DNA of 64,000 nt from Pararhodobacter zhoushanensis. GTDB taxonomy: Bacteria; Pseudomonadota; Alphaproteobacteria; Rhodobacterales; Rhodobacteraceae. Shown here piece by piece: positions 24,277 to 50,570 of this stretch. The translations under genes were made by a program, and so were the position numbers. The notes below the pieces were generated by a model. That model was not told the DNA's origin. It saw only the letters and a list, made by a program, of their open reading frames with translations, and did not search any database. The stretch lies in contig NZ_REEZ01000002.1 of the NCBI RefSeq assembly GCF_003990445.1, forward strand, positions 313,121-377,120. The letters are read 5' to 3'. Numbering within the stretch: position 1 is the stretch's first letter; each line of letters opens with the position of its first letter.

Positions 24277-25029
24277 TTATTGAATCTCATTGATATAGAC
24301 GTCATCGCGGGTGCAAGCGCGGTGGTCGTTCAACAGGATCGGCTGTGCCTGCTCGTCATAGGCGACTTCGGACAGCACCAGCACGGCGGCTGGCGCGGAC
24401 AGGCCGAGAAGTGCCACATCGGTCTCGTTGGCGAGTTCCGCCTCGATCTGCTCGCGGATCGCCGAGATCTTGAGACCGTAATCCGACCACAGGCAGAGAT
24501 ACATGAGCTCGGGCACCTCGTCGGCCTCGGTCGGGAAATCCGGCACCAGATGCATCGGCAGGATCACCGTCTCGTGCATCACCGGCCGCCCGCCGACGAG
24601 GCGCAGGCGGTGGATCTGGTGTATCATCATCGGCTCGGGCAGCGCGAGGCGCTCGGTCTCGGCGGGTGTCGAAAGGCGCTGGCATATGCTCAGGACGCGG
24701 GCCTTCGAGTTCTGCAGCTCGCCGCCCCGTGAATGCAGGCGGAAGTAATTATAGACGATTCGCAGCGAATGGCGCGGCGTGCGGCCGGTGACGACGGTGC
24801 CGGTCTTGCGGCGACGCGACAAGGCACCGCCGGCAGTCAATTCCCCCAGAGCGCGGCGGATCGTCCCGACCGAGACGCGGAATTCCTGGGCAAGTGCCGT
24901 TTCGGAAGGCAGCACGGTACCCGCCGGCCAGGCGCCGGACTCGATTCTGGCGGTCAACTGCTCAGCAATTGCCCTATAAATAGGCATGCCGAGTGGAATA
25001 TTGATTGAAATTTGACCACTCCAACGCAT
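24277..25029 (-). CDS. GntR-family (HutC/UTRA) transcriptional regulator
   Basis: A 250-residue regulator. The N-terminal winged helix is PIYRAIAEQLTARIESGAWPAGTVLPSETALAQEFRVSVGTIRRALGELTAGGALSRRRKTGTVV, and residues about 95-245 form a UTRA effector domain (MMIHQIHRLRLVGGRPVMHETVILP). ATG at 25029 is the first start; a second ATG fourteen codons later, directly before PIYRAI, is also possible and neither has a strong ribosome binding site. It diverges from the peptide-transport operon and is its likely regulator, probably responding to the transported compound or a breakdown product. Confidence 0.85.
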   Translation of the reverse strand: MRWSGQISINIPLGMPIYRAIAEQLTARIESGAWPAGTVLPSETALAQEFRVSVGTIRRALGELTAGGALSRRRKTGTVVTGRTPRHSLRIVYNYFRLHSRGGELQNSKARVLSICQRLSTPAETERLALPEPMMIHQIHRLRLVGGRPVMHETVILPMHLVPDFPTEADEVPELMYLCLWSDYGLKISAIREQIEAELANETDVALLGLSAPAAVLVLSEVAYDEQAQPILLNDHRACTRDDVYINEIQ

Positions 25030-25157
25030 TCAGGCCGCAAGCGGGCGCCGTTACCAAGACCTTCGCTGATTCAGCATTGACGTCAAGCCCGGCCCTGCGC
25101 TTATTTCTATATAGTTTACAGATAAGGACGCCAAGTGACCGAGCACGAGGCCTCGCA

Positions 25158-26447
25158 ATGACCGGAACCGAACTGCGCCGCGCCGCCATGGCGATGATCG
25201 ACGCCGAGCTGGACCACGCCGTGGCGGACCTGTCGCGGATGGTGGCTGTCGACACGACCTTTCCACCCGGCGCCGGCTATGCCGATTTCGCCGCGCTGAT
25301 GGAAGGGTTGCTAGCGGACCTGCCGATGACCACCGCGCGCGTCTCGGTCCCCGAGGAGCTGTGGCGCGTCGCCCGAGGCCCGGCACGGGGCGAGCGGGTC
25401 AACTTGATCGCTGACACCGCGGGCTCCGGCCCGGTCTGCAGCCTCTATTTCCACGTCGACACGGTCTGCGCGGCCTTGGGCTGGACGACCGATCCCTTCA
25501 CCCTGACCGAGACCGATGGCAAATTGGTCGGGTTGGGGGCTGCGGACATGAAAGGCGCGGTCGCGGCGGCGGTCCATGCCCTGCGCGTGGCGCAAAAGCT
25601 GGATGTGCCGCTGACTTATCGCCCGCAACTGTTGCTGTGCACCGATGAGGAAGGCGGTCTCTATCCCGGCATCCGCTATCTGGCGGAACAGGGGCTGATC
25701 GGCGGGCATCTTCTGAATTTCAACGGCTCGGCCGGGCCGCGCATCTGGGGCGGTTGCTTTGGCAGCTTCAACCTGCAGGTCACCGTGACCGGCTTCGCCG
25801 CCCATGCCGCCGACCGCTCAAAGCAGGGTGTCAACGCGATCGAGGCCGCCTTGCCGATGATGCAGGCCATTCAGGTCCTGCGCCCCGTGGTCACGACCCG
25901 CACCTCTGCCCTGCCCGTGCCGCCGGGCGCGGCACCGCTGGCCGCGCAGATCGCCGTCACCGTGGCCGAAGGCGGGACCTGCGGTGGACAGGTGCCGGAC
26001 CGCTTCACTTTCCTTGTGTCGCGGCGCTATGCGCCCGAGGAGGATTTCGCCACTGCCCGCGCCGAGATCGAGGCCGTGATCCGCGCCGCCTGCCCTGCCG
26101 GCGCGACGCTGGAATTCGACCTTATCGGCCATCTGATCCCGACCGCCGACCCCGAGGGCCCGCATACCGCCCGCTGGATCCGTGCCGTACAGGAGGGCTT
26201 CGGCTATGCCCCGGGTGACTTCGTCAAGTACGCCGCCGCCAGCGCGTCCGATTCCGGCTACGTGCAGCGCGCCGGCGTCTTGCAGGAGATCAACCTCGGC
26301 GGTCTGATCCGCCCGGAATCGAATGCGCATGGCGCACAAGAACATACCACGCGCGCCGATCTGGCCGCCTTGGCGAAGACGATCCTCAGCTATCTGGCGT
26401 CGGATTTCGCCCCTGAGCTGAACCCTGACCTCAATCCCGACCGCTAA
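25158..26447 (+). CDS. M20-family amidohydrolase/peptidase
   Basis: A 429-residue cytoplasmic enzyme starting at ATG 25158 (GAGG upstream). Metal ligands are recognisable: the histidine in FHVDTVC, aspartate in GLGAADMKGAVAAAV, and the catalytic base and ligand in LCTDEEGG. The C-terminal histidine is in NAHGAQEHT. The usual GEP glutamate is not obvious: the corresponding stretch reads FNGSAGPRIW. ArgE, DapE and carboxypeptidase-like enzymes use this fold to cleave N-acyl amino acids or small peptides. It is the first gene of the operon and the binding protein follows after 21 bases. Confidence 0.85.
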   Translation: MTGTELRRAAMAMIDAELDHAVADLSRMVAVDTTFPPGAGYADFAALMEGLLADLPMTTARVSVPEELWRVARGPARGERVNLIADTAGSGPVCSLYFHVDTVCAALGWTTDPFTLTETDGKLVGLGAADMKGAVAAAVHALRVAQKLDVPLTYRPQLLLCTDEEGGLYPGIRYLAEQGLIGGHLLNFNGSAGPRIWGGCFGSFNLQVTVTGFAAHAADRSKQGVNAIEAALPMMQAIQVLRPVVTTRTSALPVPPGAAPLAAQIAVTVAEGGTCGGQVPDRFTFLVSRRYAPEEDFATARAEIEAVIRAACPAGATLEFDLIGHLIPTADPEGPHTARWIRAVQEGFGYAPGDFVKYAAASASDSGYVQRAGVLQEINLGGLIRPESNAHGAQEHTTRADLAALAKTILSYLASDFAPELNPDLNPDR

Positions 26448-26468
26448 ATCCCCAACAGGAGTCCCCCG

Positions 26469-28025
26469 ATGTCCCTTAATCGCCGTGCCTTCCTTTCCAG
26501 CAGCGTTGCGCTTGCCGCGCTGGCGACCGTCCTGCCCCGCGCCGTTATGGCGCAGGCCACCCCCGAGGCAGGCGGCACGCTGCGCGTCGCGGTCGATCAG
26601 GCCGTGAGCGTCCTCCACCCGCTGATGACCCGCGTGAACCCCGAATACATGGCGGCCGAGCTTTTGTATTCAGGCCTGACCAGACTGGGCCGCGACATGC
26701 AGGCCGAGGCCGACCTCGCCACCGAATGGAGCGCCAACGACGACCTGACCGTCTGGACCTTCTCGCTGCGTCCGGGCGTGACCTTCCACGATGGCGCGAG
26801 CTGCACTGCCGCTGATGTCGTGGCCTCGTTCGAAGCTATCCTGAACCCCGACTTCGCCTCGCCCGCCCGCAACAACGTGGGCCCGATCGACTCGATCGAA
26901 GCGGTCGACGACGTGACCGTCCGCTTCACGCTGACCTCATCCTATGCCGACCTTCCGGTGGCGCTGGCCTATAACAACGCTCGCATCATCCCGGCCTCGG
27001 TCATCGACGGCTCGTTCGAGAGCCTGCGCTCGGAAGCCAATGGCACCGGCCCGTTCAAACTGGTGTCCTACGAGCCTGACCGCCTGATCGTCGTCGAGAA
27101 GAACCCCGACTACTACGACCCGGCGCGCCCCTACCTCGACCGGATCGAAATGCATGTGTTCCCGGATCTGGGCGCGCAGGTCTCGTCGCTGATGGCCGGT
27201 GACATCGACATGATCGCCACCGTCGGGCCGAACGACTACCTGCGTCTGGAAGGTCAGGACGGCATCGACGTGCTGCGCTCGGCCTCGGGCCAGTTCTGCA
27301 ACGTGAACTTCGGCACCGACATCGAGCCGTTCAACGACCCGCGCGTGCGCCGCGCGCTGGCGCTGACCGTGGACCGCGAGGCCATGGTCGGCTTCATGAC
27401 CGAGGGCTTCGGCGTAAAGGGCAACGACACGCCGCTGAACGAATCCTATCCGTTCTTCGAGGCCCTGCCCCAGCGCGAACAGAATATCGAAGAAGCGCGC
27501 GCCCTGCTGGCCGAGGCCGGCTTCCCCGATGGGTTCGAGGCCGAGCTGATCGCATCCGACCGTCCGGCGATCCGCGTGCAGCTGGCTGTTGCCCTGCGCG
27601 AAATGGCCCGTGCCGCCGGGATTACCATCAACGTCACGACCATGCCCCACGCCACCTATCTGGATCAGGTCTGGACCAAGGGCGCCTTCTACGTGGGCTT
27701 TTACAACATGCAGCCGACGCCGGACGGCATCCTGAAGCTGCTGTTCACCTCGGACGCCGCCTGGAACGAGACGCGCTGGAACAACACCGTGTTCGACGAT
27801 CTGGTCGCCCGCGCCCGCGGCACCGTTGAGCCCGCCGCCCGTACCGAGCTCTATACGCAGGCTCAGGTGCTGATGAACGACGAGGTGCCGTCGATCATCC
27901 CGGCGTTCTTCGACGTGCTGGGCGCGAAACGCAGCTGGATGCAGGGCTATGACATCCACCCGCGCGCCTCGGTGTTCCGTCTGGACCACGCCTGGCTCGA
28001 AGCCTCCGCGCCCACCCGGGGCTGA
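26469..28025 (+). CDS. ABC transporter substrate-binding protein, family 5 (peptide/opine/nickel type)
   Basis: A 518-residue precursor with AGGAG upstream of the ATG. The N-terminus SLNRRAFLSSSVALAALATVLP carries a twin-arginine motif, suggesting export by Tat, with a cleavage site after AVMA-QA. The mature protein has the family 5 layout: LAVDQ-like first strand, LTVWTFSLRPGVTFHDGASCTAADVVASF and FNDPRVRRALALTVDREAMV. Members bind dipeptides, oligopeptides, opines or glutathione. It feeds the DppB/C/DF-type genes that follow. Confidence 0.9.
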   Translation: MSLNRRAFLSSSVALAALATVLPRAVMAQATPEAGGTLRVAVDQAVSVLHPLMTRVNPEYMAAELLYSGLTRLGRDMQAEADLATEWSANDDLTVWTFSLRPGVTFHDGASCTAADVVASFEAILNPDFASPARNNVGPIDSIEAVDDVTVRFTLTSSYADLPVALAYNNARIIPASVIDGSFESLRSEANGTGPFKLVSYEPDRLIVVEKNPDYYDPARPYLDRIEMHVFPDLGAQVSSLMAGDIDMIATVGPNDYLRLEGQDGIDVLRSASGQFCNVNFGTDIEPFNDPRVRRALALTVDREAMVGFMTEGFGVKGNDTPLNESYPFFEALPQREQNIEEARALLAEAGFPDGFEAELIASDRPAIRVQLAVALREMARAAGITINVTTMPHATYLDQVWTKGAFYVGFYNMQPTPDGILKLLFTSDAAWNETRWNNTVFDDLVARARGTVEPAARTELYTQAQVLMNDEVPSIIPAFFDVLGAKRSWMQGYDIHPRASVFRLDHAWLEASAPTRG

Positions 28026-28081
28026 TCCACTGACAGAGGGCCTGTCCCCTTGCGGGGCAGGCCAAGCCACAGGGAATTTCC

Positions 28082-29029
28082 GTGTCAGCGAGCTATATCC
28101 TCAAGCGTATCGCCCTGATCTTCTATACGCTGTTCGTCGTCTCGATCCTCGTGTTCGGCATCACCCAGATCCTGCCGGCCGATGCGGCGGTGATGATGTT
28201 GGGCGAGAACGCCACGCAGGGTGCGCTGGCGGCGCTGCGCGATCAGATGGGCCTCAACGATCCGATCTGGTTGCAATATCTGCACTGGGCCGGCGGCGTC
28301 GTGCAGGGAGATTTCGGCACCTCGCTGCGCACCGGCCAGACGGTCGGACCTGCGCTGTTCTCGGCGCTGGGAACCTCGCTGACGCTTGCTGTCCTCGCGC
28401 TGGCGCTGATGCTGATACTGGCCGTGCCGATGGGCATCCTTGCGGCTGTGCGTCGGGGCAAGCTGTCGGATCTGGTCGTAGGCTTCCTTTCGTATATTGG
28501 CGTGTCGCTGCCGGAATTCGTCACCGCTACGCTGGCCGTGGTGCTGGTCGCGGATCTCTGGGGCCTGCTGCCTCCCGCCGGCTACATCCCGCTGTCCGAG
28601 GATTTCTGGGGCGGGATGCAGCGGCTGATCCTGCCGGTCTGCGTAGCCTCGGTGATGATGATCGCCCATGTCTCGCGCATGGTGCGCTCGGAACTCGTGG
28701 ACGTGATGCACACCGATTACATCCGCGCCGCGCGCCTCAAGGGTCTGACGCGGCGCCGGGTGCTGTTCCGCCACGGCCTGCGCAATGCCCTGCTGCCGAC
28801 GATCACCATCGTCGCGCTGGATGTGGGGTATCTTCTGGGCGGGATCATCGTCGTCGAGGAGATCTTCTCGATCCCCGGCATCGGCCGTTCGCTCATGTCG
28901 GCCATTCAGGCGCGTGACCTGCCGGTTATTCAGGCCGGCGTGATGATTATGGCGGCCACCTATTCCATCGTGAACTTCGCCGCCGACCTCATGTATGCGT
29001 GGCTCGACAAGAGGATCCAGTATGACTGA
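28082..29029 (+). CDS. ABC transporter permease, DppB type
   Basis: A 315-residue permease starting at GTG 28082 (AGGGAA upstream). The N-terminus SASYILKRIALIFYTLFVVSILVFGITQILPADAA and the EAA-loop region IRAARLKGLTRRRVLFRHGLRNALLPTITIVALDVGYLLGG are typical of DppB/OppB. About six helices. It overlaps the second permease by eight bases, showing translational coupling. Confidence 0.9.
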   Translation: MSASYILKRIALIFYTLFVVSILVFGITQILPADAAVMMLGENATQGALAALRDQMGLNDPIWLQYLHWAGGVVQGDFGTSLRTGQTVGPALFSALGTSLTLAVLALALMLILAVPMGILAAVRRGKLSDLVVGFLSYIGVSLPEFVTATLAVVLVADLWGLLPPAGYIPLSEDFWGGMQRLILPVCVASVMMIAHVSRMVRSELVDVMHTDYIRAARLKGLTRRRVLFRHGLRNALLPTITIVALDVGYLLGGIIVVEEIFSIPGIGRSLMSAIQARDLPVIQAGVMIMAATYSIVNFAADLMYAWLDKRIQYD

Positions 29030-29846
29030 TTTTCTGGGCCGCCTGTTGCGGAGCCCTCAGGGAGCACTGGGTTGCCTCGTCGTCGGGTTGATCCTGATCG
29101 CGGTGATCTTCGGCCCCTACCTTACCCATTACGGGCCCGAGCACATGTCCCCGCTCGCCCGCTACAAGAGCCCCTCGGCCGAGCATTGGCTGGGCACCGA
29201 CCAATACGGCCGCGACATCTTCAGCAGGCTTCTGGACGGCGCGCGCTCGACGGTGCTGCTGGCCGTGGTTGCCACCGTGATCGGCACACTCGGCGGGGCG
29301 ATCATCGGCACGGGGTCCGCCTATCTGGGCGGGCGCGCGGATGAATTCATCATGCGCACCAACGACGCGGTGATGGCGATCCCCTCGCTGTTGATGGCTT
29401 TGATGGTGGTGTCGCTGCTGGGGTCGAACTCGCTCAACGCGCTTCTGGCCATCGCCATCGCCTTCATGCCGTCGATGGCCCGCATCTCGCGCTCGGTCGC
29501 GCTGACGGTACGCAAGCAGGACTACGTCAGTGCCGCCATCGCACGCGGTGAAGGCGCCACCTATATCGTCCTGCGCGAGATGCTGCCCAATGTGATCGCG
29601 CCCATCGTCGTCGAGATGACGATCCGCGTATCCTTTGCGGTGATGCTGTTCGCGACCCTGTCCTTCCTTGGTCTCGGCGCGCAGCCACCGGCGACGGACT
29701 GGGGGCTCATGGTGTCCGAGGCACGGCAGTATCTGCACCGGTCCTATTGGATCCTGCTGTGGCCGAGCGCCGCCATCGCGCTGACCGCCATTGGCTTCAA
29801 CCTTCTGGGCGACGGGCTGCGCGACGCCCTGAACCCCCGCACCTGA
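29022..29846 (+). CDS. ABC transporter permease, DppC type
   Basis: A 274-residue permease. The ATG at 29022, within the last codons of the DppB-type gene and preceded by GAGG, is preferred to an earlier in-frame codon. The sequence GTDQYGRDIFSRLLDGARSTVLL and YVSAAIARGEGATYIVLREMLPNVIAPIVV are hallmarks of DppC/OppC. It forms the heterodimeric channel with the preceding product. Confidence 0.92.
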   Translation: MTDFLGRLLRSPQGALGCLVVGLILIAVIFGPYLTHYGPEHMSPLARYKSPSAEHWLGTDQYGRDIFSRLLDGARSTVLLAVVATVIGTLGGAIIGTGSAYLGGRADEFIMRTNDAVMAIPSLLMALMVVSLLGSNSLNALLAIAIAFMPSMARISRSVALTVRKQDYVSAAIARGEGATYIVLREMLPNVIAPIVVEMTIRVSFAVMLFATLSFLGLGAQPPATDWGLMVSEARQYLHRSYWILLWPSAAIALTAIGFNLLGDGLRDALNPRT

Positions 29847-29856
29847 GGACCGGACC

Positions 29857-31485
29857 ATGGTGAAAACGAACACGGTTCTTCAGGTCGAAAACTATTCGCT
29901 GGCCTATGACGTCAAGGGCGGCGCGGTGCAGGTGCTGAACGGCATCGATCTGATGATCCGTCGGGGCGAGATCCTCGGGCTGGTCGGCGAAAGCGGCTCG
30001 GGCAAGTCGAGCATGGCCAGCGCCATCATGCGCCATCTTGCCGGTAATGCGCGCGAGAACGACGGGAGCATCTGGCTGGGCGAAACCGACCTGCGCACGC
30101 AGTCCGAACACCAGATGTCCGCGATCCGTGGCCGCCGCGTGTCGATGGTGTTTCAGGATCCGGCGACCTCGCTGAACCCGACCCTGCGTCTGGGCGAGCA
30201 GCTGGCCGAGGTGCTGATCCGCCACCAGAACTTGACCATGGCGCAGGCCTGGGCCGAGGGCGAGGCGCGGCTTGCGCATGTGGGCCTGAAGACCCCGCGC
30301 GAGATGATGCAGCGGATGCCGCATGAGGTTTCCGGCGGCGAGAAGCAGCGCGTGGTCATCGCCACCGCCTTTGCCTGCAACCCCGAACTGATCATCTTCG
30401 ACGAACCGACGACTGCGCTGGATGTGATCACCGCGCGCCAGATCCTCGACCTGTTCGCGGCGCTGCAGCAGGAGACGGGCGTGGCGTCGCTGTATATCTC
30501 GCACGACCTCGCGCTTCTGTCGCAGACCGCCGACCGGGTGGCCGTGCTGCAAAAGGGCATGATCGTCGAGGAAGGCGAGACCGGCACCCTGTTCCGCGCG
30601 CCCCAGCATGCCTACACCCAGACGCTGATCGCCGCCGCGCCGCAGCCCGAACGCCGTCTGGTGCAACCGCTGGACCGCGCCGCGAAGCCGCTCGTGTCGG
30701 TGCGCGACGTGACGGTGAATTACGGTCGAAAATCGCTGCTCGACAGCCTCCTGCGGCGCGATTTCGCGCCTGTGGTCGGCAGCCGCGCGGTGACGCTCGA
30801 CCTGCGCCCCGGCGAGGTTCTGGGCATCGTCGGTGAAAGCGGCTCGGGCAAATCGACGCTGGCCAAGGCGATGACCGGGCTCAACCGCTTCGAAGGGTTG
30901 ATCGAGTTCGACGGCAAGCCTGTGCGGGGCCTGTCGGATATGGACGCCAACTATCGCCGCGACGTGCAGATCATCTTCCAGCACCCCGACGCCTCGCTGA
31001 ACCCGCGGCAGCGGATTTCGGAAATCCTCGCCCGGCCGGTCAAGCTGTATGGCAAGGGCGACGGTTCAGTGCGCGAGCGGATCGTGGCGATGCTGGAACG
31101 CGTGCGCCTGCCCGCCAGCTATATCGACCGCTACCCGCACGAGCTGTCGGGCGGCGAGAAGCAGCGCATCGCCATCGCCCGCGCCTTCCTGTCAAACCCG
31201 CGTCTGGTGATCTGCGACGAGATCACCTCGGCGCTGGATGTCTCGGTGCAGGCCTCGGTGATCGAGCTTCTGATGGAGCTGCATCGCGACACCGGCGCCG
31301 CCTATGTCTTCATCACCCATGACATCAACCTCGTGCGGCAGATCGCGCACCGCATCGCCGTGATGTACCGCGGCGATCTGGTCGAGATCGCCGATGCCGA
31401 ACGCATCGCCGACGCCGACCGTGCCCCCTACACGCGCAAGCTGCTGGAGGCGGTCACGCCCCCTGCCTCGACGCATAGCGCCTGA
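29857..31485 (+). CDS. Dipeptide-type ABC transporter ATP-binding protein, fused DppD-DppF
   Basis: A 542-residue protein with two complete ATPase domains in one chain. Domain 1 has GESGSGKSSMA, VSGGEKQRVVIA and IIFDEPTTALD; domain 2 has GESGSGKSTLA, LSGGEKQRIAIARAF and VICDEITSALD. In many bacteria these are two genes; fusion is common in Alphaproteobacteria. The Walker B glutamate of domain 2 is present in the form CDEITSALD. It starts ten bases after the DppC stop and energises the peptide importer. Confidence 0.93.
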   Translation: MVKTNTVLQVENYSLAYDVKGGAVQVLNGIDLMIRRGEILGLVGESGSGKSSMASAIMRHLAGNARENDGSIWLGETDLRTQSEHQMSAIRGRRVSMVFQDPATSLNPTLRLGEQLAEVLIRHQNLTMAQAWAEGEARLAHVGLKTPREMMQRMPHEVSGGEKQRVVIATAFACNPELIIFDEPTTALDVITARQILDLFAALQQETGVASLYISHDLALLSQTADRVAVLQKGMIVEEGETGTLFRAPQHAYTQTLIAAAPQPERRLVQPLDRAAKPLVSVRDVTVNYGRKSLLDSLLRRDFAPVVGSRAVTLDLRPGEVLGIVGESGSGKSTLAKAMTGLNRFEGLIEFDGKPVRGLSDMDANYRRDVQIIFQHPDASLNPRQRISEILARPVKLYGKGDGSVRERIVAMLERVRLPASYIDRYPHELSGGEKQRIAIARAFLSNPRLVICDEITSALDVSVQASVIELLMELHRDTGAAYVFITHDINLVRQIAHRIAVMYRGDLVEIADAERIADADRAPYTRKLLEAVTPPASTHSA

Positions 31486-31503
31486 CTTCAAGGACTTATT
31501 TCG

Positions 31504-32742
31504 ATGGACCTCAACTCCCTGCTCGACACTGTCGATGCGAAAGCCGCCCTCGACTTCGTGTCGATGATGGTCCGGCACAAGACCTATTCCGAAACCGAGG
31601 GCGAAACCGTTCTGGTCCGCCGGATGGTGCAGGAAATGGGTGCGATTGGCATCGACGCCCATGTCCACGGCTTCGGTGACAAGGGCCGCGCGAACGCGAT
31701 CGGCACGCTGAAGGGCACCGGCGGGGGCGCGAGCCTGATGTACAACGGCCATCTCGATACCAACCCGGTAACCGAGGGCTGGACGGTGGACCCGTGGGGC
31801 GGGCTGGTGGATGACAGTTTCATCTACGGGATCGGCGTGTCGAACATGAAATCGTCGAACGCGGCGTTCTTCTGCGCGATCAAGGCCTTGCAGGACGCGG
31901 GCGTGAAGCTGAAGGGCGACGTGGTCCTGACCTATGTGGTGGGCGAGCTACAGGGCGGCGTCGGCACCGAGGCGCTGATGCACGACGGCTACCGTGCCGA
32001 CTACTTCATCAATGGCGAGCCCAGTGATCTCGTTGCCGTGACGATGCACGCCGCCGCGCTGAAATTCCAGATCGAGCTGACCGGCGACACCCGCCATCTG
32101 TCGAAGCGTGAGGAAGCCGTGGATGCGCTGGTCGCAGGCTGCGATCTGGTCGGGCGCCTCAATGCCATGACCTTCTCGGGCGCGGCGACGCCAGAACATG
32201 CCTCCGTCAACCGCTGCCATGTCGGCGTGATCAAGGCGGCGCTGGGTCGCGAGCTTGAGGAATGGCGCCCTCCGCAGGTCGCGGATTTCTGCGTGCTCAA
32301 GGGCTCGTCGCGCTATGCACCGGGCCAGACGCGCGACGGCGTTCTGGCCGATATGGAAGTCGAGCTGACGGCCCTGCGCGCCCGCTATCCGGGGCTGCAG
32401 ACGAAGCTCATCTCGATGGACACGATGGAGGAGAAGGGCCTGTCGCTGATGCCGCCCTATGAGGTCCGCCGCGACAGCCCGATCGTCACCGCGATCAACG
32501 CCGCCTACCGTCAGGTGCGCGGCGAGGAGCAGCCGACCGGTGCCATCACCCCCACCCGCTTTTACGGCTCGGACGCCGGGCACCTCTATGAACTGGGCGG
32601 GATGGAAGGCATCGTCTGCGGCAGCGGCGGGCGTTACAACACCATGCCCGACGAGCGCGTGGACATCGTCGATTACCTCGACCTGATCAAGGTTTACATG
32701 CTGACAATCATCGCCATCTGCGGCATGGACGATGGCGTCTGA
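31504..32742 (+). CDS. M20-fold protein with degraded metal site
   Basis: A 412-residue protein with the M20 peptidase fold but several substitutions at positions that bind metal. His83 in GHLDT and Glu172 in GEP are present, and the likely catalytic base Glu148 (VVGELQGG) remains. The bridging aspartate is Asn114 (GVSNMKSS), the second glutamate is Leu149, and the C-terminal histidine is Asn379 (RYNTMPDERV). Three of five ligands are lost, so ordinary dinuclear zinc catalysis is unlikely; it may bind one metal, act by another chemistry, or be a binding partner. It lies 18 bases after the fused ATPase gene and overlaps the M24-type gene by 11. Confidence 0.8.
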   Translation: MDLNSLLDTVDAKAALDFVSMMVRHKTYSETEGETVLVRRMVQEMGAIGIDAHVHGFGDKGRANAIGTLKGTGGGASLMYNGHLDTNPVTEGWTVDPWGGLVDDSFIYGIGVSNMKSSNAAFFCAIKALQDAGVKLKGDVVLTYVVGELQGGVGTEALMHDGYRADYFINGEPSDLVAVTMHAAALKFQIELTGDTRHLSKREEAVDALVAGCDLVGRLNAMTFSGAATPEHASVNRCHVGVIKAALGRELEEWRPPQVADFCVLKGSSRYAPGQTRDGVLADMEVELTALRARYPGLQTKLISMDTMEEKGLSLMPPYEVRRDSPIVTAINAAYRQVRGEEQPTGAITPTRFYGSDAGHLYELGGMEGIVCGSGGRYNTMPDERVDIVDYLDLIKVYMLTIIAICGMDDGV

Positions 32743-33859
32743 GATCCCGGCCGAATACCGCTGGCGGGTCGACAAGGCCCGCGCCGTCATGGCCGGGGCG
32801 GGCTGCGACTTGCTGCTGCTCGACAGCGGCGAGGCTCTGGCCTGGCTGTCTGGCTACAGCGTGTCGGAAACCATGTACCGGGCCGTGTTCCTGCCGCGCG
32901 AAGGCGAGCCGTGGTTCGTACTGCGCCATCTCGATGCCGAGCCCTGCCGTCAGGGCGGCTGGATCGCGGATATCGTGGGCTACCCGGACAGCCACGAACC
33001 TGAGCGGGTGATGGCCGAACAGATCGCGCAGCGGGGTTTCGGCGCGGGTCGGGTCGGTGTTGATTTCAACTCGATCAGCTGGAGTCCGGCGCGACAGGCG
33101 ACGATCGCGGCCCTGTTGCCGGACCTCACGTTCGTCAACCTCGAAGGGGTGACCGAATCCCTGCGCTGGGTGAAGTCGGCTCATGAGATCGGCAAGCTGG
33201 CCGAAGCCTCGGCCATTGCCGACCGCGCTCTGGCAGAGATCGCTGCCAAGGCCCTGCCCGGCCTCACCACGAACGAAGCCGCCATCACGGCAGCCGCCTG
33301 TTTCCTGCGCCACGGCGCGGATACTGGCGAGACGGGGCCGATCGTTCTGGGTCGCGGAAATCACGAATTCCTGCACGGCCTGTTCCGCCCTCACACTCTG
33401 GCGACGGGCGACGTGCTGCATGTCGAACTCATCCCCTATGTCGGCCGCTATGGCGCGCGGATCATGCGGCCGATCGTCATCGGTACGCCGTCGCCTCGGC
33501 AGCAGGAGGTTGCGCAGGCCCTGATTGCCCTGCAGGACGAACAGATCGCTGCCATGCGACCCGGCGCGATCGCCTCAGACGTGGACCGCATCGTGCGGAA
33601 CGGCGCGCTGAAGGCTGGACTGCGCGGCGAGTACACCAACGTCACCGCCTACACGCTGGGCCTGTACATACGCACCCCGCGCAGCAGCGATTTCTCGCGC
33701 GTGTTCCTTCCGGACCAACATTGGGCGCTGGAGGAAAACATGGTGTTCCATGTCTACACAACGGCCGAGGGGCTTGGGTTTTCCGAAACCGTGGTCGTCA
33801 CGCCCGCCGGCGGGCGGCGTCTGACACAAACCCCGCGCCGGATTCTGACAGCGGGCTGA
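32732..33859 (+). CDS. M24-fold (creatinase/prolidase-like) hydrolase lacking metal ligands
   Basis: A 375-residue protein with a creatinase N-terminal domain (YRWRVDKARAVMAGAGCDLLLLDSGEALAWLSGYS) and C-terminal pita-bread domain. In metallo-M24 enzymes five residues hold two metals; here the first aspartate is Glu232 (HVELIP), the second is replaced in YGARIMRP, the histidine is absent in TLGLYIRTP and the first glutamate is lost in VFHVYTT, leaving only the last one (FSETVVVT). Creatinase and ectoine hydrolase (DoeA) are related proteins that work without a dinuclear metal centre, so C-N amidine or amide hydrolysis of that kind is the best guess. The gene overlaps the preceding one. Confidence 0.8.
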   Translation: MASEIPAEYRWRVDKARAVMAGAGCDLLLLDSGEALAWLSGYSVSETMYRAVFLPREGEPWFVLRHLDAEPCRQGGWIADIVGYPDSHEPERVMAEQIAQRGFGAGRVGVDFNSISWSPARQATIAALLPDLTFVNLEGVTESLRWVKSAHEIGKLAEASAIADRALAEIAAKALPGLTTNEAAITAAACFLRHGADTGETGPIVLGRGNHEFLHGLFRPHTLATGDVLHVELIPYVGRYGARIMRPIVIGTPSPRQQEVAQALIALQDEQIAAMRPGAIASDVDRIVRNGALKAGLRGEYTNVTAYTLGLYIRTPRSSDFSRVFLPDQHWALEENMVFHVYTTAEGLGFSETVVVTPAGGRRLTQTPRRILTAG

Positions 33860-48098: not shown

Positions 48099-49469
48099 TC
48101 AGCCGAGGGTGGCGCGCAGGGCTTCGCCGGTGACACGGGCGATCTGGTCGGCCTCGTCCGTGGTCAGGCAGAGCGGCGGCGCGAAGCCGAGCATGTCGGC
48201 TTGCGGCATGGCGCGGGCGATGACACCGCGTTTGAGCATCTCGGCTACGACCTTGGGCGCAACGCTGCCCATCGGGTCGAAGCTGGCGCGGCTGGCGCGG
48301 TCCGAGGTCAGCTCGACCGCGCAGAGCATCCCTTCGCCGCGGATCTCGCCGACATTGGGGTGGTCGCCGACGGCATCGGTCATGGCGCGGCGCAAATAGG
48401 CACCGACTTTGCCTGCGTTCTCGACCAGTCCCATCTCGTCGATCAGCTTGAGGTTGGCGACCCCGGCGGCGGCACCGATCGGGTGGGCGGAATAGGTCCA
48501 GCCATGGCCGAACACGCCGTTCTCATCCGTGCCCTGGCAGAGCACGTCCCACATCTTGGTGCCGACGATGGAGCCCGACAGTGGCGCATAGGCCGAGGTC
48601 AGGCCCTTGGCGATGGTGATCAGGTCGGGCTGCAGCCCGTAGTGCTGCGAGCCGAACATGGTGCCCAGACGGCCAAAACCGGTGATCACCTCGTCGACGA
48701 TCAGCAGGATGTCATGGCGTTTGAGGATCTCCTGCACGCCCTGCCAGTAACCGACCGGCGGCGGGACGATGCCGCCCGTGCCCAGCACCGGCTCGCCGAT
48801 GAAGGCGGCGATGGTGTCGGCGCCCTCGCGCTCGATGGTCTCTTCCAGCTTGGCCAGCAGCCAGGCGGTGAAATCGGCCTCACTCATCGCCGGATCGGGG
48901 CGGCGGTAATAGAAAGGGGCTTCGGTATGGACGACCTGCGACAGCGGCAGGTCGAATTTCTTGTGGAACAGCTCAAGCCCGGTCAGCGAGCCGGAAACCA
49001 GCCCCGAGCCATGGTAACCCCGCCAGCGCGAGATGATTTTCTTCTTCTGCGGCAGGCCACGGATGTTGTTGTAAAACCAGACCAGCTTGATGTTCGTCTC
49101 ATTCGCATCCGACCCGCCGAGGCCGAAATACACCCGCGCCATGCCCTCGGGCGCGCGGTCCATGACCATCTTCGACAGCGTGATCGACGCCTCGGTCCCG
49201 TGACCGGCGTAGGAGTGATAATAGGCCAGTTCCTGCGCCTGTTTGGCGATGGCATCGGTGATCTGCCGCCGCCCGTAGCCCGCGTTGACGCAATAGAGCC
49301 CCGCGAACCCGTCGAGCAGCCGGTTGCCGTCGCGGTCGGTGATGAACACGCCTTCGCCGCCGGTGATGATGCGCTGCGGGGCCTCGCCGCGGGCGAACTG
49401 GCTCAGATGGGTCGAGGGGTGGAAAAAGCTCTCGCGGTCCCAGTGGGCGAGTTGGTCGTTGGTCAGCAT
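48099..49469 (-). CDS. Class III aminotransferase
   Basis: A 456-residue pyridoxal-phosphate enzyme. The cofactor lysine is Lys288 (ITIAKGLTSAYAPLSG) and Asp259 (IVDEVITGFGR) binds the pyridine nitrogen; GSDANETNIKL and the GHGWTYSAHPIG stretch fit omega-amino-acid transaminases. AGGAGG precedes the ATG. It is divergent from a DoeB-like deacylase, so it may be the DoeD-type step that moves the amino group from diaminobutyrate in ectoine breakdown. Taurine, putrescine and beta-alanine are alternative substrates. Confidence 0.85.
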   Translation of the reverse strand: MLTNDQLAHWDRESFFHPSTHLSQFARGEAPQRIITGGEGVFITDRDGNRLLDGFAGLYCVNAGYGRRQITDAIAKQAQELAYYHSYAGHGTEASITLSKMVMDRAPEGMARVYFGLGGSDANETNIKLVWFYNNIRGLPQKKKIISRWRGYHGSGLVSGSLTGLELFHKKFDLPLSQVVHTEAPFYYRRPDPAMSEADFTAWLLAKLEETIEREGADTIAAFIGEPVLGTGGIVPPPVGYWQGVQEILKRHDILLIVDEVITGFGRLGTMFGSQHYGLQPDLITIAKGLTSAYAPLSGSIVGTKMWDVLCQGTDENGVFGHGWTYSAHPIGAAAGVANLKLIDEMGLVENAGKVGAYLRRAMTDAVGDHPNVGEIRGEGMLCAVELTSDRASRASFDPMGSVAPKVVAEMLKRGVIARAMPQADMLGFAPPLCLTTDEADQIARVTGEALRATLG

Positions 49470-49577
49470 GGCAGGCCTCCTGTTGTTGCGGGCAGGCTAA
49501 CGCGTTCAGCCGCTGGCGTGAACCCTCTGGCCTTGAGCGCGCGGGCGCGGCAGGATGGGCGCAAATCAGGAGGTTTG

Positions 49578-50570
49578 ATGCCCGCCAATCCGATCCGCCC
49601 GACCGTCTCGCTGGACGAACCCGGCAAACGACACGGCTTCCTCAAGCTGCCCTATTCGCGCAACGACAGCGCCTGGGGCTCGGTGATGATACCGCTGACG
49701 GTGATCGTGGGCGCGCCGGGACCGACAGCGCTGCTGACCGGGGCCAATCATGGCGATGAATACGAGGGGCCGATTGCGCTGCAGGCGCTGGCGCATGAGG
49801 TTGAGGCCGAGGAGGTCACGGGTCGGCTGATCATCGTGCCCTATTTCAATTTCCCGGCGTTCACGGCGGCCAGCCGGGTCTCGCCGATTGATCAGGTTAA
49901 CCTTAACCGCGCCTTTCCCGGTGTGCCTGATGGCAGCGTGACGCAGAAGATCGCCAACTACTTCAACGACACGCTGGTGCCGCTGGCCGATCTGGTGGTC
50001 GATTTCCACTCGGGCGGCAAGACGCTGGATTTCCTGCCCTTCGCCTGTGCGCATTACCTTGATGACCCCGTGCAGCAGGCCGCCTGCGTCGCCGCGGTCG
50101 AGGCGTTCAACGCGCCCTGGTCGCTGATGCTGCGCGAGATTGATGCGGTGGGGATGTATGACACCGCCGTCGAGGCGCAGGGCAAGGTGTTCGTGACCAC
50201 GGAACTGGGCGGCGGTGGAACGGCCTCGGCACGCACGGCGCGGATCGCGCGGCGGGGGCTGCGGAATGTGCTGATCCACGGCGGGATGCTGAGTGGCGCG
50301 CCTGAGGTAGAGCCGTCGGTGATGCTGGAGATGCCGGATGACGCCTGTTACCACACCGCCCCGGCCTCGGGCCTGATCGAGCCTTTGGCCGATCTGGGCG
50401 ATCCCATCGTGCCGGATCAGCCGCTGGCGCGGATCTGGGCTACGGATTGCACCGGCGCGCAGCCGGTGACGGTGTTTGCCCAGCGCGACGGCGTGCTGGC
50501 GGCGCGGCACTTTCCGGGGCTGGTGCAGCGCGGGGATACGCTGGCGGTTCTGGCCGTGCCGCAGCGTTGA
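49578..50570 (+). CDS. Succinylglutamate desuccinylase/aspartoacylase family deacylase, DoeB-like
   Basis: A 330-residue zinc-dependent amidohydrolase. Zinc ligands are in TGANHGDEYEGP (His and Glu) and DFHSGGKTLDF (His), and the catalytic glutamate lies in VTTELGGGGTASARTARI. Length, motifs and the C-terminal beta domain match the DoeB group, which removes acetyl from N-alpha-acetyl-2,4-diaminobutyrate in ectoine catabolism. AGGAGG precedes the ATG by four bases. It is divergent from the class III aminotransferase gene across 108 bp. No doeA or regulator gene is adjacent; the M24-type gene at 32732 is distant. Confidence 0.8.
   Translation: MPANPIRPTVSLDEPGKRHGFLKLPYSRNDSAWGSVMIPLTVIVGAPGPTALLTGANHGDEYEGPIALQALAHEVEAEEVTGRLIIVPYFNFPAFTAASRVSPIDQVNLNRAFPGVPDGSVTQKIANYFNDTLVPLADLVVDFHSGGKTLDFLPFACAHYLDDPVQQAACVAAVEAFNAPWSLMLREIDAVGMYDTAVEAQGKVFVTTELGGGGTASARTARIARRGLRNVLIHGGMLSGAPEVEPSVMLEMPDDACYHTAPASGLIEPLADLGDPIVPDQPLARIWATDCTGAQPVTVFAQRDGVLAARHFPGLVQRGDTLAVLAVPQR

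Follow-up and report, generated by a model that had tools for sequence, protein, structure and literature searches.

An operon that ends in two enzymes of peptidase fold, each with an altered metal site, raises the question of what such a pair could act on, and whether it acts at all. The operon lies in Pararhodobacter zhoushanensis, in a stretch of 64,000 nucleotides of contig NZ_REEZ01000002.1 (positions 313,121 to 377,120), hereafter the window, whose coordinates are used unless a locus number (L) is given. It spans 24277-33859 and carries, in order, a divergent gene for a GntR regulator on the minus strand and genes for a first M20 protein (M20a), a binding protein, two permeases, a fused ATPase, a second M20 protein (M20b) and an M24-fold protein. 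A sequence-only reading of this DNA had seen in the last two enzymes a loss of most metal ligands in two unrelated folds, and had taken it as a sign of a specific compound and possibly of a new catabolic route. Its genes and coordinates were borne out when the sequence was re-read, as were its family assignments by Pfam. The pairing of two altered enzymes in one widely conserved, seemingly self-regulated operon is real, and both proteins are now tied to groups that each hold one characterised, chemically unusual member: 5-nitroanthranilic acid aminohydrolase (5NAA-A) for M20b and the ectoine hydrolase DoeA for the M24 protein.

Active site and relatives of M20b

Alignment of M20b with canonical M20 proteins places Asn114 at the bridging Asp, Leu149 at the second Glu (a metal ligand) of the GEE motif, and Thr380 at the metal His, i.e. 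three residues before the D/N-E of the 'H-x-x-D-E' motif. Three ligands of the canonical set (His, Asp, Glu, Glu, His) are therefore gone. The sequence-only reading had picked out Asn114 and Leu149; its third residue, Asn379, is the neighbour of the one that occupies the His position, and the His is absent either way. His83, Asp85, Glu148 (at the general-base position), Glu172 and the partner His198 are retained, a set that corresponds to the second metal site except for the change of Asp to Asn. A loss of most metal ligands, as first described, is thus too strong a statement for M20b, which keeps this second site, and holds for the M24 protein, where one ligand of five is left. All eight positions (N114, L149, T380, H83, D85, E148, E172 and H198) are invariant in 85/85 rows, namely the window and 84 loci with at least 55% identity; locus L032 (28%) was dropped, and L023 and L033 represent one genome.

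The M20b sequence alone finds 5NAA-A as its top match in the PDB (2e-16), and M20b displays the pattern of this enzyme: Asn, GE[IL] and no His, with His-x-Asp and a late Glu kept. The Asn / GE[IL] / no-His pattern was also found by alignment in the L032 protein and in proteins of Acinetobacter, Paraburkholderia and Kozakia. A 21-row M20 tree that included a near-full 5NAA-A chain separated 15 altered rows from 6 canonical rows with a branch support of 97/93. Judged by residues and tree, M20b groups with 5NAA-A apart from canonical M20 proteins, and is probably a one-metal hydrolase. The sequence-only reading had missed this precedent. The crystal structure of 5NAA-A reportedly has a single metal bound.

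The kinship was also seen from the other side. Of 72,556 plasmid records, 46 matched a 108-residue piece of 5NAA-A at E<=1e-5, and the best 30 of these 46 consisted of 29 matches at M20b genes and one in Acinetobacter. With an E limit of 10 the search gave 154 records, the best 60 of which were inspected; among these, the first match that was neither M20b nor Acinetobacter came from Rhodobacteraceae bacterium M382 at 5e-3, and rows annotated as ArgE/DapE reached only 8e-3 or worse. The same piece gave no match at 1e-15 among 148 relatives, in a search without positive control that shows little.

Genes for 5NAA-A-like M20 proteins occur on plasmids of Acinetobacter (L131:4178-8672) and Paraburkholderia (L136:1965-6858), next to genes coding for an LLM flavin oxidoreductase, an isochorismatase-family/cysteine hydrolase and a flavin reductase, an arrangement which we take to resemble the Rut genes for pyrimidine ring opening; two proteins of these loci had no Pfam match at 1e-5. 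The L032 protein (L032:9019-10239), with Asn, GEL and no His, represents a separate M20 family at 28% identity to M20b.

Ligand positions of the M24-fold protein and of M20a

At the five ligand positions of canonical M24 peptidases (Asp, Asp, His, Glu, Glu) the M24 protein has Glu232, Arg243, Tyr307, a gap or Tyr342, and Glu352, so that only the last ligand is kept, just as had been noticed from the sequence. Glu232, Arg243, Tyr307, Tyr342 and His215 are invariant in 59/59 rows and Glu352 in 58/59, with one gap; these rows are the window and 58 loci with at least 40% identity over about 300 residues, after relatives at 25-35% and five broken copies were dropped.

A profile of the M24 family ranked DoeA first in the PDB (134 bits, 4.4e-38), followed by prolidases (128 bits) and, more weakly, creatinase (87 bits, 8.9e-24). 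In a 25-row M24 tree, 18 ligand-less rows including DoeA formed a clade (support 98/99) that excluded the prolidase, aminopeptidase P and MetAP-like rows, and the M24 protein belongs, as far as residues and tree can tell, to this ligand-less clade. The earlier pointer to ectoine hydrolase was thus a good one at the level of kinship. Glu232 aligns with DoeA Glu255 (numbered by counting along the printed alignment), which is said to form a covalent intermediate. The M24 protein scored 104.9 bits with TIGR02993, the equivalog model of ectoine hydrolase DoeA, which has a cut-off of 613.

Other altered M24 genes were seen in different surroundings. A canonical and an altered M24 gene adjoin each other in Salipiger (L123). 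Ligand-less relatives with 34-46% identity (L117:8099-13934, L031:11584-17269 and L122:1254-12526) adjoin spermidine/putrescine-type or Dpp-type transporters, the L031 genes being read by eye, and have a glutamine amidotransferase-like or gamma-glutamyl-GABA hydrolase gene nearby. Locus L026 (5924-14870) combines M20b and a transporter set, without M20a, with two M24-like genes at its two ends, followed by a RidA-like gene (read by eye).

M20a retains H99, D130, E165 and H391, all invariant in 77/77 rows. The Glu of its GEP motif, the fifth ligand, is replaced by Asn189, which is just as invariant (77/77), and M20a consequently departs from the canonical ligand set at one position. The near-complete metal site first described is right for four ligands, while the fifth is a fixed Asn. 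M20a thus lacks the Glu ligand that M20b keeps, and keeps the ligands that M20b lacks.

Conservation and distribution of the operon

A scan of species genomes gave 275 relatives of M20b, the best 80 of which underlie the locus counts; neighbouring genes were called with a codon-based gene caller. A full set of regulator, M20a, binding protein and ATPase is present in 74/80 loci. Two of the six exceptions lack the regulator only, and four lack three or four of these genes, three of them (L098, L101 and L108) having less than 2.4 kb available upstream of M20b. Hosts include rhizobia, Bradyrhizobium, Bosea, Azospirillum, Paracoccus-type bacteria and Pantoea. All eight genes are also found in a genome of the same genus (G016), with 87-97% identity.

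An intact M24 gene adjoins M20b in 56 loci and lies elsewhere in the locus in 1; 5 loci have a broken copy, and in 18 the available DNA contains none. Contigs end within 9 kb in three of the M24-less loci (L037, L098 and L108). The co-occurrence of the two altered proteins proposed as a check is therefore frequent, but M24 is optional and the pair is not obligatory. In 12 of 16 M24-less loci the gene after M20b has the opposite orientation and in 3 the same one; in the remaining locus, L037, no gene was called. The same-strand genes lie about 100 bases away in L085 and at least 0.6 kb away in L083 and L103.

The ratio of nonsynonymous to synonymous substitution rates (dN/dS) against the orthologues of Pararhodobacter CCB-MM2 was 0.081 for M20a, 0.080 for M20b and 0.184 for M24. 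Against Paracoccus onubensis (L034), where dS exceeds 1, the values were 0.177, 0.082 and 0.172. Residue invariance together with low dN/dS indicates that the altered sites of M20b and M24 are maintained and not decaying, and rules out fresh decay of the two proteins. The idea of a loss in both folds can accordingly be divided: the pairing is real, but there were not two fresh losses, since the trees place both proteins in older, already altered groups. Each altered site was inherited within a group that has a characterised member, which makes the finding less surprising than had been claimed.

The M20b family is tight: among the best 60 of 76 plasmid rows, identity runs from 83 to 55% and then drops to 30%. 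The M24 family is less sharply bounded, with a drop from 43 to 28% in the best 50 of 503 plasmid rows and relatives of 32-35% in genomes. Both are patchily distributed. At 1e-40, 5/148 relatives match M20b, the own genome included, and 5/148 match M24; an M20b profile run against 299 genomes of the phylum had a single match at 1e-35, in the own genome.

A fixed additional pathway gene beside the operon was sought and rejected, since neighbour clustering over the 80 loci gave no non-core cluster in more than 21 loci. The largest cluster (21/80) is a mixed ABC-ATPase group and the next covers 6 loci. Genes for 5-oxoprolinase subunit A, an opine-dehydrogenase-like protein and an Asp/Glu racemase stand beside some copies, though not consistently (L023:15275-16087; L044 near 1-2700, alike in L051, L060 and L063; L116:15290-22175).

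Predicted regulation

The gap between the regulator and M20a holds a conserved operator-like site. A site with at most 6 mismatches to a 21-base consensus was found in 73/74 gap regions, and with at most 4 mismatches in 72; the consensus was derived from the same regions, and the control, one shuffle per region, gave at least 6 mismatches. The first 15 bases of the site, allowing at most 2 mismatches, have a single occurrence each in the own genome and in G016; with the pattern reversed as a control, neither genome gave a match. The operon looks like its own regulon because the site is single in the genome. The GntR protein presumably binds this site. The single site and the conserved gene set lend support to the earlier suggestion of a specific compound and a dedicated route.

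Gammaproteobacterial operons and ddpX

Seven gammaproteobacterial records offer a clue to the cargo. A ddpX gene directly follows M24 in Pantoea dispersa, Sodalis praecaptivus and Pantoea SOD02; the three products score 271-287 bits with the D-Ala-D-Ala dipeptidase model, above its cut-off of 176, and retain SxHxxGxAxD and ExWH, which we take to be the VanX/DdpX motifs. The Duffyella record has no match to either M24 or ddpX. In Pantoea SS70, M24 is missing and a ddpX remnant of 35 residues follows M20b; in P. soli, ddpX is missing and M24 is a broken stretch. On a plasmid of Pseudomonas silvicola (L127) the whole operon has apparently decayed to fragments, among which an M24 piece and a ddpX-like stretch are recognisable. 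From this pattern of presence and loss, M24 and ddpX behave as one module. The position of ddpX after M24 hints that a D-amino-acid dipeptide may be released or taken up in some gammaproteobacteria.

Proposed function and alternative explanations

We consider it rather probable that this operon is dedicated to the import and hydrolysis of a single small nitrogen compound of peptide-like nature, with the following mechanism. The GntR/UTRA protein would bind the single TATATAG operator-like site and keep the operon repressed as long as neither the compound nor a product is bound to the regulator. The ABC system, clearly of the Dpp/Opp type by family, would import the compound. M20b, an active one-metal hydrolase in this scheme, would make the first C-N cleavage: by analogy with M20 enzymes and 5NAA-A, a metal at site 2 would be held by His83, Asn114 and Glu172, Glu148 would activate water and His198 of the partner subunit would steady the transition state. 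M20a may then take off an acyl or amino-acyl group. In most hosts, the M24 protein would cut a further C-N bond without metal in a DoeA-like manner, Glu232 acting as the nucleophile with help from His215 and Glu352, and in some gammaproteobacteria a D-Ala-D-Ala dipeptidase might act next. The genes, residues, kinship and site conservation are as observed above; the order of steps, the chemistry, the cargo and the inducer are those we infer.

Several observations weigh against this proposal. The active sites of M20b and of the M24 protein are read from alignment alone. A profile of the M20b family ranks a canonical DapE-like protein (4.6e-24) above 5NAA-A (4.8e-19) in the PDB, support for the same group was only 84/64 in an earlier 25-row M20 tree, which included M20a, two distant rows and a partial 5NAA-A chain, and both M20 trees flag long branches and contain few, author-chosen canonical rows. 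Moreover, since 5NAA-A is longer after GEI and seems to have no partner His, its chemistry need not apply to M20b. The M24 gene, absent from 18/80 loci and broken in 5/80, cannot be essential everywhere; M20a is itself missing from the Variovorax locus, and none was found next to M20b in L025, L026 and L029. Finally, ddpX had no match in any of the 80 genome loci, nor did Pfam M15 in the own genome or G016, so that the hint of a D-peptide may not carry over.

Three other explanations were compared with the dedicated operon. It seems unlikely that M20b and the M24 protein are ordinary peptidases (a deacylase and a Xaa-Pro dipeptidase) which bind metals through other residues and serve a plain dipeptide scavenging operon. 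The fold, the overall similarity to ArgE/DapE and prolidases, and ddpX in some operons would agree with this, but the residues that replace ligands (L149, Y307 and R243) never vary and do not commonly bind metal, both proteins group with altered and not with canonical relatives, and the Salipiger locus, with its two kinds of M24 side by side, demonstrates that both types coexist. Quite improbable, in our opinion, is that one or both are pseudoenzymes, i.e. binding or regulatory proteins that have lost catalysis. Such a fate would account for the disappearance of most M24 ligands and of site 1 of M20b and for an M24 that is absent or broken in 23/80 loci; however, no variation is seen in M20b at the positions of the general base, the partner His and the ligands that remain, nor in M24 at the residues aligned with DoeA Glu255 and His; the dN/dS of M20b is 0.08, and each group includes a characterised enzyme (5NAA-A, DoeA).

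A paralogous ectoine-type route, in which M24 would open a cyclic amidine and an M20 protein remove the acyl group as DoeA and DoeB do, is rather unlikely as well. The M24 protein does group with DoeA and scores best with ectoine hydrolase models, but its 105 bits fall far short of the cut-off of 613, M24 is missing from the operon in 18/80 loci, and a DoeA relative that comes far closer (578.9 bits, though likewise below 613) is encoded in the genome, together with a DoeB (N-acetyl-diaminobutyrate deacetylase; 49578-50570, 500 bits) above its own cut-off. Ectoine as the substrate is unlikely for the same reasons. The doeB gene adjoins an aminotransferase gene, the two lying within 48099-50570, and the doeA-like gene is on another contig (L143:8478-9722, G000:C1), the ectoine route being split across the genome.

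Returning to a dedicated operon, one may tentatively go a step further and imagine a new catabolic route, spread among the hosts named above, for a D-amino-acid-containing or cyclic peptide-like metabolite of plants or soil, in which a one-metal M20 and a metal-free, Glu-nucleophile M24 cut C-N bonds beyond those of ordinary di-metal peptidases; 5NAA-A and DoeA would be the first-characterised members of wider groups. This extension is possible, though doubtful. Should the two altered enzymes work on a single compound, the reach of one-metal M20 and metal-free M24 chemistry would go beyond nitroanthranilate and ectoine. Database names of the two proteins are generic or probably misleading (M20/M25/M40 metallo-hydrolase, once acetylornithine deacetylase; Xaa-Pro peptidase family protein), and literature searches gave no title on this operon among the matches listed. 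As a compact, seemingly self-regulated unit with a self-contained gene set, in culturable soil bacteria and also in plant-associated ones, the operon is a convenient object for study.

Organisation of the operon

The features are listed in Table 1. One binding protein with an SBP_bac_5 domain, two BPD_transp_1 permeases and two ATPase domains, all found by Pfam, make up a complete Dpp/Opp-type ABC importer. The binding protein starts with a twin-Arg motif, NRRAFL (read by eye). The best NCBIfam model for the second permease is a D,D-dipeptide permease at 255 bits, under its cut-off of 434. The M20b and M24 genes overlap by 11 bases.

Table 1. Features of the operon, in window coordinates.
Feature	Position	Strand	Evidence
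GntR/UTRA (HutC-like) regulator, divergent	24277..25029	-	Pfam GntR and UTRA
Operator-like site TTTCTATATAGTTTACAGATA in the regulator/M20a gap	25104..25124	+	Conserved site in gap regions
M20a (P0001), ArgE/DapE-like hydrolase	25158..26447	+	Pfam M20 and dimer domain
Family 5 solute-binding protein (P0005)	26469..28025	+	Pfam SBP_bac_5, 284 bits
Permease B (P0006), GTG start	28082..29029	+	Pfam BPD_transp_1
Permease C (P0007), overlaps permease B	28995..29846	+	Pfam BPD_transp_1, OppC_N
Fused double ATPase (P0008)	29857..31485	+	Two ABC_tran stretches
M20b (P0002), probable one-metal-type M20 protein	31504..32742	+	Pfam, alignment, tree
M24-fold protein (P0003), predicted DoeA-like site (E232, R243, Y307, E352)	32732..33859	+	Pfam, alignment, PDB profile match

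Comparison with known systems

The ddp system presumably combines DdpX with a dedicated Dpp-type transporter and has no M20, M20 and M24 genes. It shares with the present operon the Dpp-type ABC import and, in the three gammaproteobacterial versions, DdpX.

M20b resembles 5NAA-A of Bradyrhizobium JS329 (PDB 5k8m) in its M20 fold, in Asn for the bridging Asp, in GEI/GEL for GEE, in the missing metal His and in the retained His-x-Asp and later Glu. The two are nonetheless distinct. The match of 5NAA-A to the listed plasmid M20b genes is 44-47% across about 95 residues only, and 5NAA-A has 14 residues more after GEI, an extra stretch that it has in common with the Acinetobacter, Paraburkholderia and Kozakia proteins and that is absent from 10 M20b rows. 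By eye, 5NAA-A seems to be without a partner His, whereas M20b has His198, and the operon contains no aromatic ring-cleavage genes. Passages of two papers describe 5NAA-A as stripping an aromatic amino group hydrolytically (PMC10306065, PMC4539516), and in a passage from 2025 it is classed with enzymes thought to use nucleophilic aromatic substitution (SNAr)-type pathways via metal-hydroxide intermediates or covalent aryl esters (PMC11903332).

The M24 protein differs from DoeA/EutD (PDB 6twk) by an identity of about 24-26% to plasmid doeA genes, by Arg243 where DoeA has Pro, by being four residues shorter near the fourth ligand, and by its operon and transporter. Creatinase (PDB 1chm) is a non-peptidase of the same fold and a weaker match than DoeA to the M24 profile. 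The M24 protein shares the creatinase/M24 fold with DoeA, and in both the first ligand position is occupied by Glu and that of the His by Tyr, with the final Glu retained.

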